Assembly (NCBI GenBank): GCA_017537925.1
Contig: JAFYJW010000031.1
Location: forward strand, 1-38,718
Direction: 5' to 3'
Source: Synergistes sp.
Lineage (GTDB): Bacteria; Synergistota; Synergistia; Synergistales; Synergistaceae
DNA: 38,718 bases
Under the pieces are notes generated by a model. That model did no database searches, was not told where the DNA came from, and worked only from the letters and a program-made list of their open reading frames with translations. Below, piece after piece: positions 1 through 4,361 of the stretch (position 1 is its first letter; the number at the start of each line of letters is the position of its first letter). The translations under genes and the position numbers were made by a program.

Positions 1-1122
1 GAATATCAGACAGACCGCCGCTATCCCCAGTCCCGGGGGAAGAAGCAGCCACCACGCGCCCTGTGTGAAGGCGCCGAAAGAGTGCGCCTCGTGCAGCATC
101 CTTCCCCATGATATCAGGTGCGGGTCCGACAGCCCTAAAAACGCAAGCCCGGCCTCCGCGAGTATCGCGCCTGGAACGCCGAGCGCGATGTTCGCAAGCA
201 GTATCGGCGCTGTCTCCGGCAGAAGATGCCGCCAGAGTATATAGCTGCGCGGCGCGCCCAGCGCGCGCAGCGATTCCACCCACGCGCTTTCGCGCAGCGT
301 GAGGACGAGAGCTCGCACGGAACGCGCCGTTCCCATCCACGAGAAGAGCGAAAGTATAAGCACCAGCTGCCACAGCCCCCTGCCCCAGATACCGGCAAGC
401 GCCATCAGTATCGGCAGAGTCGGAATCGAAAGCAGTATATCGACGGTCCTCATGACCGCCGAGTCCAGTATGCCTCCGGCGTATCCTGCCGCAAGACCAA
501 GCGACATGCCTATGAGGCTTGCCGCTATCGTCGCGGATATGCCGACTATCAGAGAAGTCCTGATGCCGTAGAAAAAGAGCGCCAATACGTCTCTTCCGCG
601 CTGGTCGGTGCCCAGCAGCCCCTGTCTTTCCCCCGCAAGCGACAGGGTAAGGTCGGCGCTTTCCGCGCCTTCAAGCAGCATGCTGTAGCTGCCGTGCGAC
701 GGGAAGAGATAGTCCACGCTCCTGCTTACCGGGGGCAACCCTATCGCCTGCTTGAAGATCAGGTCGCGCCCGTCGCTGTTTATCCAGTATTCGTCTGAGC
801 CGCTGAGCTCGCTGAGCAGATATTCCTTTTCGGGGGATACCCATTTTATCCTTACGTCAGCCGAAGCGTTCGCCGTTATGTGCCCGCGCAGAGAGAATAT
901 CGCCGGAGGCTCCTTGTCCCAGACGAATTCGGTCTTTCCCGGCTTTATGTCTATCGTCCGCGCGGAGGGCAGAGTGCCGCTTTTCCACCACAACGGCCTG
1001 GCAAAGGGCGCGCCGGTTATCTCCTGCGGCGGAGCCTTGACCAGCAGAGGAGCGAATATCCCTGCCGCGGCTATCAGCAGGAACGCCATCACGCTTTTGC
1101 GAAGCAGTATATCCCGCATCAT
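1..1122 (-). CDS. ABC transporter permease, DppC/OppC type (3' end beyond the window)
   Basis: This is an inner-membrane permease of a peptide/nickel-type ABC importer, the partner of the DppB-like permease encoded just before it. The visible 374 codons have a TM helix at residues 10-28, the family signature LLGTDQRGRD at 169-178, further TM helices, and the EAA loop that contacts the ATPase (SLRALGAPRSYILWRHLLP, about 284-302). The start ATG overlaps the dppB-like stop as ATGA, so the two are translationally coupled. The odd part is the stretch between TM1 and the LLGTD motif: about 140 residues of probably extracytoplasmic sequence, against roughly 35 in E. coli DppC. The C-terminus lies off the left edge, and no ATPase gene is visible. 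The family call is sure; the substrate is not known. Confidence 0.93.
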   Translation of the reverse strand, partial: MMRDILLRKSVMAFLLIAAAGIFAPLLVKAPPQEITGAPFARPLWWKSGTLPSARTIDIKPGKTEFVWDKEPPAIFSLRGHITANASADVRIKWVSPEKEYLLSELSGSDEYWINSDGRDLIFKQAIGLPPVSRSVDYLFPSHGSYSMLLEGAESADLTLSLAGERQGLLGTDQRGRDVLALFFYGIRTSLIVGISATIAASLIGMSLGLAAGYAGGILDSAVMRTVDILLSIPTLPILMALAGIWGRGLWQLVLILSLFSWMGTARSVRALVLTLRESAWVESLRALGAPRSYILWRHLLPETAPILLANIALGVPGAILAEAGLAFLGLSDPHLISWGRMLHEAHSFGAFTQGAWWLLLPPGLGIAAVCLIF

Positions 1123-2093
1123 TCTTTTTTACCCTCTATCCTTACTCTCGGGTCGGCAAAGCCGTAGGCCACATCCGCCGCGAAGTTGCAGAAGACCGTG
1201 ATCAGCGCCAGCAGGTAAAACGACGCGCCCGCCGACGGATAGTCATGGCCGGATACGGCCTCAAGCAGAAACGTGCCTATGCCGTGAAGAGAGAATACGG
1301 ATTCGGTGATGACTGCGCCTGAAACGAGCCCCGGCACGGACATCAGCAGTATTGTTATTATCGGCGGCATTATCGTCCTGAACGCATGCCATACGACGCG
1401 TCCGCGCGGCAGTCCGCGCGCGCGGGCCATCAGCACGAAATCCTCTCCGAGCGCTCGCACCATCAGATTGCGCACATAGAGCGCCCATCCGCCGAAGCCT
1501 ATAAGAGAGAGGGACAGCACTGGAAGGGCCATATGCCTTACATAATCAAAAAAGAGCGCGGCAGTCCCTTCGGGCGGAGGCACGGACAGTGTGCCGCGGA
1601 GCGGGAATATCGGCAGCGCGCGCGCGAAGAGCATCAGCAGCACGATCTGGACGAAAAAGCCCGGGAAGGACGCGGTCAATGCGCTTGCCGCAAGAACTAT
1701 CTTCTCGGCAAGCCGCCCGCGGTTAAGCGCGGCCTTTATGCCGAGCCATATGCCGAACGCGGCGGAGATCGCCATCGAAGCGGACGTAAGCGCAAGCGTG
1801 ACGGGCAGCCGCGTCAGCAGCTCGTCCCATACCGGTTTTCTGCTGATGAACGACAGCCCGAAGCTGAACGTCAGCATCTGCTTCACATATATCGCGAACT
1901 GCTCCGGCAGAGACTTGTCGAGACCGTAGATCGCGCGCAGGTTCTCCTTTGCTTCCGGCGAAAATGACGGATCTATTATCGTGCTGACCGCGTCTCCCGG
2001 CATCATGCGGAATATCACGAAATTCAGCGCGATCACCGCGGCAAGGACAAAGAGCGATGAAAGAAAGCGTTTCGCAAGCCATCTGTAATTCAT
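1119..2093 (-). CDS. ABC transporter permease, DppB/OppB type
   Basis: This 324-aa integral membrane permease belongs to the peptide/nickel ABC transporter family. TM1 is at about residues 9-28, followed by the DppB/OppB N-terminal pattern MMPGDAV and a periplasmic stretch ending near GLDKSLPEQFAIYVKQ. Several TM helices and the cytoplasmic EAA loop (MARARGLPRGRVVWHAFR, about 223-240) follow, and the protein ends in a TM segment after SGHDYP. The length is normal for the family. It overlaps the binding-protein gene by 4 nt and the downstream permease by 4 nt, so all three should be made from one mRNA. The DppB type is clear; peptide, nickel or another substrate cannot be decided from the permease. 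Confidence 0.95.
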   Translation of the reverse strand: MNYRWLAKRFLSSLFVLAAVIALNFVIFRMMPGDAVSTIIDPSFSPEAKENLRAIYGLDKSLPEQFAIYVKQMLTFSFGLSFISRKPVWDELLTRLPVTLALTSASMAISAAFGIWLGIKAALNRGRLAEKIVLAASALTASFPGFFVQIVLLMLFARALPIFPLRGTLSVPPPEGTAALFFDYVRHMALPVLSLSLIGFGGWALYVRNLMVRALGEDFVLMARARGLPRGRVVWHAFRTIMPPIITILLMSVPGLVSGAVITESVFSLHGIGTFLLEAVSGHDYPSAGASFYLLALITVFCNFAADVAYGFADPRVRIEGKKE

Positions 2094-3766
2094 CTGCCGT
2101 CGCCTCCGAGCCGCCTGTAGTGCGGGTTTCTCTCAAGCATAAGATATTCGCCCGGACGGTAGCTTTTAAGCATGAAAGGCCCGCTCCCGATAAGTCCGTG
2201 CGGCCCCGTCCTGCCGTCTTCCGCAAGGGGATCCCAGCGCTGCCAGTCCTTTATCTTTTCTATTACCGCTGCGGGAATGGCCGGAAGCGACGCGGCGTTG
2301 TCGAGATACCAGTAGCTTACCCCGTCCATTACTATGCGCAGAGTATGATCGTCGGGCGTTTCGGTCTTTTTTATGTTTTTCACCGCGTCGAAGAAGCGCG
2401 GTATTTTATTGCGGCGCAGGAAATCAATGGTGGCCTTTATGTCGCGCGCGGTAAGCGGAGAGCCGTCGTTCCACAACAGGCCTTCTTTTACGCGGAATAC
2501 CAGCTCCGTGTGGCGACCTTTTCCTTCCCCTGCCGTTTTTACCTCCCATGACGACGCAATAGCGCCGCAGTTTTCGAGAGTGTACGGGTTCGTCGTAAGA
2601 AGCGACTCGTATATCAGCCCCAGGACCTGCCACGAGTAGGCGGATGACGCGGTAAACGGATTAAGGTTGCGCGGTTCTTCGGCAAGCAGCATCCTGAGCG
2701 GGCGATCCTTTCCGTCGGCGGGTTCCGCGCCGAGCAGCGTCCACATATTGTCGGCCGTTATGCTGTCGGTCGTAAATATGTTCTTCCATTTCTTCGACAC
2801 GGCTGCCACCGAAAGGCGGCTGTAAATTGGCACGGACGGCATGAGTTCCGCCAGTATGCGCTGCGCTTCGGCGGAGGCAGCACGCGCGGTCTGTTCGTCC
2901 GGCGCGCCGCGCAGCGCTTCAAGGGCGCCGTCAAGGCGCGCGTCGCTTATTCCGGTCATGTTGTATCCGCCTTCAAAATCCATCGAGCTGTGATAAAACG
3001 AATAGAGAGAATCGGGATTTCTGCCCATTCCCCATGCCAGCACCGCCATGGAATAATCCTTTCTGTCAAGACGGTTTATCATAACGGAAAAGTCTATCGG
3101 CTCAGTCTCCGCGGATATTCCTATCACAGAGAGAGAATCCGCTATTATCTGGGCAAGCTCCGCCGTTGTAGGCGCAACTCTCGCAAGCGGAGTGAGCAGC
3201 TTCATCGGCGGCACTTCGCTTCCGTCCGGGGCGGTCAGCCTGCCGGAAAGAGTCCACGAATAGCCGTTTTTTTTGAGCAGCTCGCGCGCCGCCTGCGGAT
3301 CGTAGATATCCGCCGCGCTGTCGGCAGGCGCCCACGGAGATACAGGGGGGAGCCATGAATTTATCGGTTCGCAGTAGCCGCTGAATATCATTCTGACGAT
3401 GCTGCTCCTGTCTATCGACATGGCGGCGGCGCGTCTCAAGGCCGCGCTGTTCCACGGGCTCTTTTTGTTGTTCAGCAGCAGGAAAAATGCGTGAAAGCCG
3501 CGCGCGGTGGACATCGCAAGCTCTTTGTTTTCGGCAAGCCTGTCAATGTCGGAGGGGCGGGCTATATCTCCCATTATGTCGAGCTCTCCGGCTTCCGCAG
3601 CCATTATCTGAGCGTCGGGGTTGGATATTATGATCATCGAAAGCTCGGAAATTTTTGGGCCGTGTATATCAGGCTCACCTGTTTTTCCGCCGCAGAAGGC
3701 CGCGGAGGAAAAACAGGGCAGGAGTATCATAAAGAGCGCACAGAGAATCGTTTTTGCGTGATGCAT
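2090..3766 (-). CDS. Circularly permuted substrate-binding protein of an ABC transporter (SBP_bac_5 family)
   Basis: This secreted 558-aa protein should deliver the ligand to the downstream permeases. Residues 1-27 form a Sec signal peptide; Cys25 is not in a good lipobox. The rest has the parts of a DppA/OppA-type protein in swapped order. Residues about 36-348 match the normal C-terminal half: the ISNPDAQIMAAEAGELDI strand-helix that normally follows the ERNPxYW motif, then the LRRAAAMSIDRSSIV helix, then the terminal AELMPSVPIYSR region. A linker of about 8 residues follows. Residues about 355-552 match the normal N-terminal half: RNLNPF, FRVKEGLLWNDGSPLTARD, GSGPFMLKSYRPGEYLMLER and NPHY, then the stop. 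No part is missing or duplicated, and the frame is intact. It starts 7 nt after the regulator gene and its stop overlaps the next ATG. The family is certain; the permutation is read by eye against DppA. Confidence 0.93.
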   Translation of the reverse strand: MHHAKTILCALFMILLPCFSSAAFCGGKTGEPDIHGPKISELSMIIISNPDAQIMAAEAGELDIMGDIARPSDIDRLAENKELAMSTARGFHAFFLLLNNKKSPWNSAALRRAAAMSIDRSSIVRMIFSGYCEPINSWLPPVSPWAPADSAADIYDPQAARELLKKNGYSWTLSGRLTAPDGSEVPPMKLLTPLARVAPTTAELAQIIADSLSVIGISAETEPIDFSVMINRLDRKDYSMAVLAWGMGRNPDSLYSFYHSSMDFEGGYNMTGISDARLDGALEALRGAPDEQTARAASAEAQRILAELMPSVPIYSRLSVAAVSKKWKNIFTTDSITADNMWTLLGAEPADGKDRPLRMLLAEEPRNLNPFTASSAYSWQVLGLIYESLLTTNPYTLENCGAIASSWEVKTAGEGKGRHTELVFRVKEGLLWNDGSPLTARDIKATIDFLRRNKIPRFFDAVKNIKKTETPDDHTLRIVMDGVSYWYLDNAASLPAIPAAVIEKIKDWQRWDPLAEDGRTGPHGLIGSGPFMLKSYRPGEYLMLERNPHYRRLGGDGR

Positions 3767-3773
3767 GGGAAGT

Positions 3774-4361
3774 TTAACCTTCTGCGTCCGGCGTCTCGGA
3801 GCGGACTATTCTTATCTCGCGCCCGGGCAGAGGACGCCCGGCCAGTATCCTGAGCATCATGCGCCCCACCAGCGCCCCAGTCTCAAATGAGGGGCCGCCC
3901 TCTTCGTCGGCCGTCACGGAATACGCTCCGTCGGCGGCAAAGCCTACGCATACGACCGGCACCTCGGCCGTTGCCGGAGGCGTATCCGCGTCGCACCATA
4001 TGAGCCCCTCCGCGCTGCGTTCGCTCAGTGTCCCGATTATATGACGCGCCCGCACGTCGTTTCCGTCTGTGGATTTCAGCAGCATCTCATACTCCGAATT
4101 CGCAAGCGCCCTTTCGACGCCGGCAAGAAAAGCTCCGAGCCACGGCACGTTCAGAGTACGCGCGACGACCCCGATAAGGCCGCTTGAGCTCGTCGAAAGG
4201 CTCCTCGCGTTGCGGTCTATCTTGTAGTCGAGCGCTCTTATGCTTTCCATGACCTTCATCTTGGTCTTCTCAGAAATGCGGTGATCGCCGCGCAGGACCC
4301 GGCTTACTGTAGCCTTGTCCACACCGGAGCGATTTGCCACATCCTGCATAGTGACCTTCAT
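3774..4361 (-). CDS. LacI-family regulator lacking one lobe of the effector domain
   Basis: This is a DNA-binding repressor-like protein of 195 aa; LacI regulators usually have about 330. Residues 1-25 form the LacI helix-turn-helix (TMQDVANRSGVDKATVSRVL), and the hinge helix region ends near residue 58. Residues 60-154 are the first part of the N-terminal subdomain (LIGVVARTLNVPWLGAFLAGVE, then VPVVCVGF). At about 155-157 the sequence jumps from TADEEGG straight to PSFETGALVGRMMLRILAGR, the segment that normally closes the N-subdomain near the C-terminus. The whole C-subdomain is absent, without a frameshift, and there is no room for it elsewhere. The start ATG has AGAGGTG upstream; upstream in-frame ATGs lie in or before the promoter. 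It is first in the transporter operon and probably controls it and itself. Confidence 0.9.
   Translation of the reverse strand: MKVTMQDVANRSGVDKATVSRVLRGDHRISEKTKMKVMESIRALDYKIDRNARSLSTSSSGLIGVVARTLNVPWLGAFLAGVERALANSEYEMLLKSTDGNDVRARHIIGTLSERSAEGLIWCDADTPPATAEVPVVCVGFAADGAYSVTADEEGGPSFETGALVGRMMLRILAGRPLPGREIRIVRSETPDAEG

Follow-up and report, generated by a model that had tools for sequence, protein, structure and literature searches.

Natural circular permutants are already known among substrate-binding proteins (SBPs) of other clusters than the one treated here. The glucose-binding protein Tp0684 (TpMglB-2) of Treponema pallidum is circularly permuted, and its authors find both ligand binding and a conformational change (PMC4990184). 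Glycine betaine- and molybdate-binding proteins together with CysB form a permuted set found by CPSARST (PMC2395249). For the DppA/OppA/NikA family (SBP_bac_5, PF00496; cluster C), no description of a permuted member was found in the literature searched, where most subscription journals were missing.

The gene at 2090-3766 (minus strand) of the window, a 38,718-nucleotide stretch of Synergistes sp. DNA, very probably encodes a working exported SBP of an Opp/Dpp-type ABC importer that is circularly permuted, the transport role being a prediction. The protein has in common with DppA, OppA and NikA its Pfam family, the homology of both halves, an importer operon and predicted hinge strands, but its halves are swapped, its new ends are placed in a domain I loop and its partner DppC has an extra beta-sandwich. 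If the normal C-terminal half is divided into successive parts A and B and the normal N-terminal half is called N, the window protein is of type ABN and an ordinary one NAB. Tp0684, like the window protein, is an SBP that has undergone natural circular permutation, but it has the cluster B fold, belongs to another family, is cut elsewhere and is a tethered lipoprotein (Type Ic), whereas a pattern search found no lipobox in 117 ABN proteins. Tethering, proposed as a reason for the permutation of Tp0684 (PMC4990184), was rejected here on that ground. The CPSARST set likewise represents permutation among SBP-like folds, but it comprises other families with less than 24% identity whose relation is seen by structure (PMC2395249), whereas here the permutation stays within a single Pfam family and can be recognised from sequence.

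Swapped order of the two halves

The open reading frame encodes 558 amino acids and has a signal-peptide-like start, in agreement with the initial annotation, which had described an open frame with the signal peptide retained. The signal peptide and leader (aa 1-35; 3662..3766, minus) are helical at aa 7-14, a low-confidence region of the structural model, and are conserved in orthologues as an unaligned hydrophobic leader. The next segment, aa 36-350 (2717..3661, minus), corresponds to the C-terminal half of normal SBP_bac_5 proteins. Between the last aligned residue of this segment and a strand at aa 357-361 lies the linker that joins the old C-terminus to the old N-terminus (approximately aa 351-355; 2702..2716, minus). 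With the old C-terminal segment ending around aa 350 and the old N-terminal strand starting from about aa 356, its length is about 5-8 residues, close to the 8 or so proposed earlier. The chain then continues with what is the N-terminal half of normal family members (aa 356-552; 2111..2701, minus), with NPHYR at its end.

With Pfam SBP_bac_5 the protein scores 217.8 bits, against a curated cut-off of 32.4. The best stretch, aa 37-260, matches profile positions 146-363 of 368, i.e., the later part of the model comes first. The canonical order of the halves is absent, which makes the protein a permuted variant and not an ordinary member of the family. Additional Pfam matches (F-box, DNA_Packaging_2) were under the cut-off and taken as chance. 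Searching PDB sequences with phmmer matched SBPs in two swapped stretches, in the example of 4pfu aa 363-539 to chain residues 17-179 and aa 96-327 to 261-506, and the 60 best PDB sequence matches to a profile of 64 permuted proteins (hmmsearch) were all in canonical order. A test profile built from 28 normal-order SBPs gave two matches to the native chain: aa 37-325 correspond to profile positions 177-438 (216 bits), and aa 364-551 to profile positions 1-176 (132.5 bits). When the chain was rotated in silico at aa 350, the two matches fused to one covering positions 1-438, with 356 bits. The permutation is complete: no segment is doubled and none is missing. The full-length alignment in normal order that would have spoken against a circularly permuted DppA-type protein was not obtained with either phmmer and hmmsearch against PDB sequences or the normal-order profile, and the assignment stands.

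Predicted fold and position of the cut

An AlphaFold2 model computed with 64 orthologues had a pLDDT of 92.3 and a pTM of 0.87. Sequential structure alignment covers one half only (model residues 31-350 to DppA 203-507; 37-352 to OppA 216-517), as expected of a permutant. This C-half, comprising domain III and the adjoining part of domain I, aligned to cluster C structures with VIA Z values of 26-29 over about 290-320 residues at an rmsd of 2.6-5.7, and the modeled fold of this half can be assigned to the cluster C type. Foldseek TM-scores were 0.41-0.48 when normalised by the SBP model. For the N-half, which forms the rest of domain I and domain II, homology to solved structures was found by sequence, and the model of the whole protein is confident.

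The cut had been placed at the crossover between domains I and III. This needs correction: it lies inside domain I, about 50 residues ahead of the domain I/III hinge strand. Residue 37 of the model pairs with residue 216 of OppA, so that the OppA equivalent of the cut is at around residue 213-216. Since in AliD domain I consists of residues 29-63, 191-296 and 583-617 and domain III of residues 297-582 (PMC11192437), this site falls within the second of the three domain I segments. Two long strands of the model, aa 83-98 and aa 311-324, are consistent with the pair of hinge strands reported for proteins of cluster C (EppA, PMC7312458). The model thus suggests that domain III stays in one piece and that the new chain ends are confined to lobe 1.

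Distribution and history

The genome search for swapped SBP_bac_5 halves that had been proposed with the initial annotation found permuted orthologues in Synergistota, Bacillota and Bathyarchaeia. In an initial search of 41 genomes, most encoded the permuted protein with its halves in the same order, at 41-95% identity. Among Synergistota it was present in 108 of 188 genomes and 46 of 63 genera, usually once per genome, and several carriers are single-contig chromosomes. Because about 80 of the 188 genomes are without it, the protein is dispensable. A scan of named genome records showed the permuted SBP also in Bacillota MAGs and one Bathyarchaeota genome; matches occurred in 24 of 348 sampled Bacillota genomes and 10 of 257 Bathyarchaeia genomes. 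Plasmid-borne relatives of the window type covering at least 80% of the query were not found. Counting of segment orders gave 116 proteins of type ABN, 26 of the normal type NAB and one BNA. This spread over Synergistota genera, Bacillota and archaea shows that the order of the chain in the SBP fold can be altered without loss of the transporter.

Some individual loci deviate. One permuted SBP gene appears to be broken, with an internal TGA that splits the match in two (G148:C1:1106303-1107936), and related genomes have intact copies. A contig-end fragment in a Myxococcota MAG (L107:10001-10450), 57% identical to the permuted SBP, is possibly contamination. Some Bacillota MAGs (L094:3916-8152, L096:9896-13726, L097:1-3669) have two permuted SBP genes in tandem that are about 80% identical, and L096 additionally has a normal-order SBP operon upstream. 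Archaeal permuted SBPs (L108:9662-11914; L119; L123; L124; L132; L126; L128) are extended beyond the new C-terminus by dockerin-like repeats, by long additions or by a membrane helix; in two members a membrane helix is probable at the end, and others have the dockerin-like repeats.

A tree of 117 ABN, 28 NAB and 5 BNA proteins was made with the segments put in normal order; the alignment profiles were trained on ABN proteins and may pull some relatives together. The ABN proteins form one clade (support 100/95) that contains Synergistota (100/100), Bacillota (96/90) and archaeal proteins. A normal-order Bacillota pair (L096:3263-5137 and L122) is sister to ABN when the full sequences or the C-halves are used for the tree, but not with the N-halves, and the normal-order sister of the ABN group is therefore unsure. 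The permutation is ancient and common to most sampled Synergistota genera and to other lineages. A tandem duplication whose outer halves were then lost is a plausible origin and the simplest route; no duplication intermediate was seen among the loci, the Bacillota tandem copies both being already permuted.

The importer operon and an insert in DppC

The stop codon of the SBP gene overlaps the start of the gene for a DppB-type permease (ATGA) of 324 aa (1119..2093, minus; PF00528 and PF19300), whose position is conserved. It is followed by a DppC-type permease, identified from its translation and truncated by the contig start (1..1122, minus), which aligned to E. coli DppC and OppC with Z values of about 25. 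The window itself thus holds DppB and part of DppC, and in relatives the permuted SBP gene is mostly the first of an SBP-DppB-DppC-DppD-DppF operon, with the two BPD permeases and two ATPases of an Opp/Dpp-type importer. Some archaeal permuted SBPs are without adjacent permease genes. In the neighbourhoods of the relatives, no broadly conserved genes that could give a clue to the substrate were found outside the importer operon.

Adjoining the operon, at 3774-4361 (minus), the window encodes a short LacI-like protein composed of an HTH, the beginning of the sugar-binding domain and an apparent last part, with the middle absent; Pfam covers only positions 3-69 of the 281-position profile. In nine loci, a relative is encoded immediately upstream of the permuted SBP gene.

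The DppC of the window contains an extra periplasmic beta-sandwich between TM1 and TM2 (619..1038, minus; insert profile E 1.4e-47), which is absent from DppCs of normal-order operons. In the model the sandwich is ordered, with strands at pLDDT 91-96, and E. coli DppC and OppC align around it. Its presence is also apparent from the GTDxxGR motif of DppC, which starts at residue 154 at least in permuted-SBP operons vs. 73-100 in normal-order operons, counting normal-order DppCs where the pattern was found and regarding a few very high values as over-long ORF starts. No known fold was identified for the insert: the best VIA matches, with Z values of about 7.3, did not stand out from those of common arrangements, and matches to PDB sequences were insignificant only. 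The insert profile matches 106 of the 188 Synergistota genomes, nearly always in one place each. According to a comparison of the genome lists by hand, permuted SBP and DppC insert are both present in 105 genomes and both absent from 79, whereas four are discordant, three with the permuted SBP only (G071, G133, G138) and one with the insert only (G131). Bacillota and archaeal genomes likewise have the insert next to the permuted SBP.

This co-occurrence indicates linkage and not interaction, since shared ancestry alone can hold neighbouring genes together. We tentatively propose, as a possibility with the odds somewhat against it, that the insert and the permutation are a coupled innovation that altered docking or holding of the SBP and has been passed on jointly in Synergistota, Bacillota and Bathyarchaeia, with cluster C SBPs permuted at least twice, at different sites. 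The insert offers a direct route to asking how a binding protein and its permease adapt to each other.

Alternative explanations

That the order of the halves is an assembly or binning artefact, with parts of a single normal SBP gene or of two such genes misjoined, might be suspected from the window being a single contig of a fragmented genome of 77 contigs. The chance of this is negligible, as the same order recurs in the 108 Synergistota genomes, including the single-contig chromosomes, and in other phyla; an assembly join, named earlier as an observation that would overturn the permutation, is contradicted by these independent genomes. A fusion to which two different SBP lineages contributed one half each, instead of permutation of one gene, would agree with the position of the L096/L122 pair as sister in the C-half tree and not in the N-half tree. 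Nevertheless, we consider such a fusion highly unlikely: both half-trees place ABN beside the BNA permutants, which argues against a chimera, and the N-half of L096 is a long, poorly placed branch.

The protein could also have retired from transport to become a sensor or surface protein that merely adjoins permease genes. Those archaeal members that have dockerin-like or very long tails and lack adjacent permeases point in this direction, but in Synergistota and Bacillota it is for the most part the first gene of a five-gene importer operon that encodes the protein, which leaves this explanation a very slight chance.

Proposed function and ligand

As a permuted SBP serving an importer, the protein would be exported by Sec, after which the chain is expected to adopt the two-lobed shape typical of cluster C. 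Domain III (approximately aa 91-320) would stay continuous between the two hinge strands, leaving the flytrap motion unchanged, with the new termini in a domain I loop (lobe 1) and the old ends tied by about five residues. The SBP would bind a solute and hand it to DppBC, with DppDF driving import; the beta-sandwich of DppC is probably near the docking face.

A W-x-x-D aspartate (D501) binds the peptide amino end in AliD (PMC11192437). At the corresponding place the window protein has W245-G-M-G-R249, a W-x-x-[SGT]-R motif, and the W-x-x-D of canonical peptide-binding SBPs is thus absent, which still allows other ligands. The variant motif is nearly universal in ABN proteins: the residue at W+3 is Asp in 3 of 117, and Arg is present at W+4 in 105 of 117. 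Many normal-order SBPs in the sample are also without the W-x-x-D aspartate. The motif gives a weak hint that an anionic or otherwise atypical ligand may be about as likely as a peptide.

A second permutant

One of the 188 Synergistota genomes encodes an SBP_bac_5 permutant with the order B-N-A, cut in domain III (L164:1114-2793, minus). Searches with tblastn identified full-length, collinear relatives with 33-43% identity on plasmids of Halalkalicoccus, Nitratireductor, Roseomonas, Ketogulonicigenium and others. The BNA loci considered (L164; L185:5974-7623; L186:5983-7659; L206:2971-4569; L207:5905-7590) are from haloarchaea, alphaproteobacteria and the one Synergistota MAG. Like the window type, the BNA permutant belongs to SBP_bac_5, is permuted and is encoded by the first gene of an importer operon, but it differs in its cut site, forms a separate clade and is accompanied by a normal-sized DppC (two operons checked). 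SBP_bac_5 proteins have thus been permuted at two different sites, and whether these events were independent depends on the placement of the L096/L122 pair. The plasmid relatives, which are in importer operons, are annotated simply as substrate-binding proteins, illustrating that annotation can hide a permutation. On some of the plasmids, the BNA operons also contain M20/M28 peptidase and hydantoinase genes.
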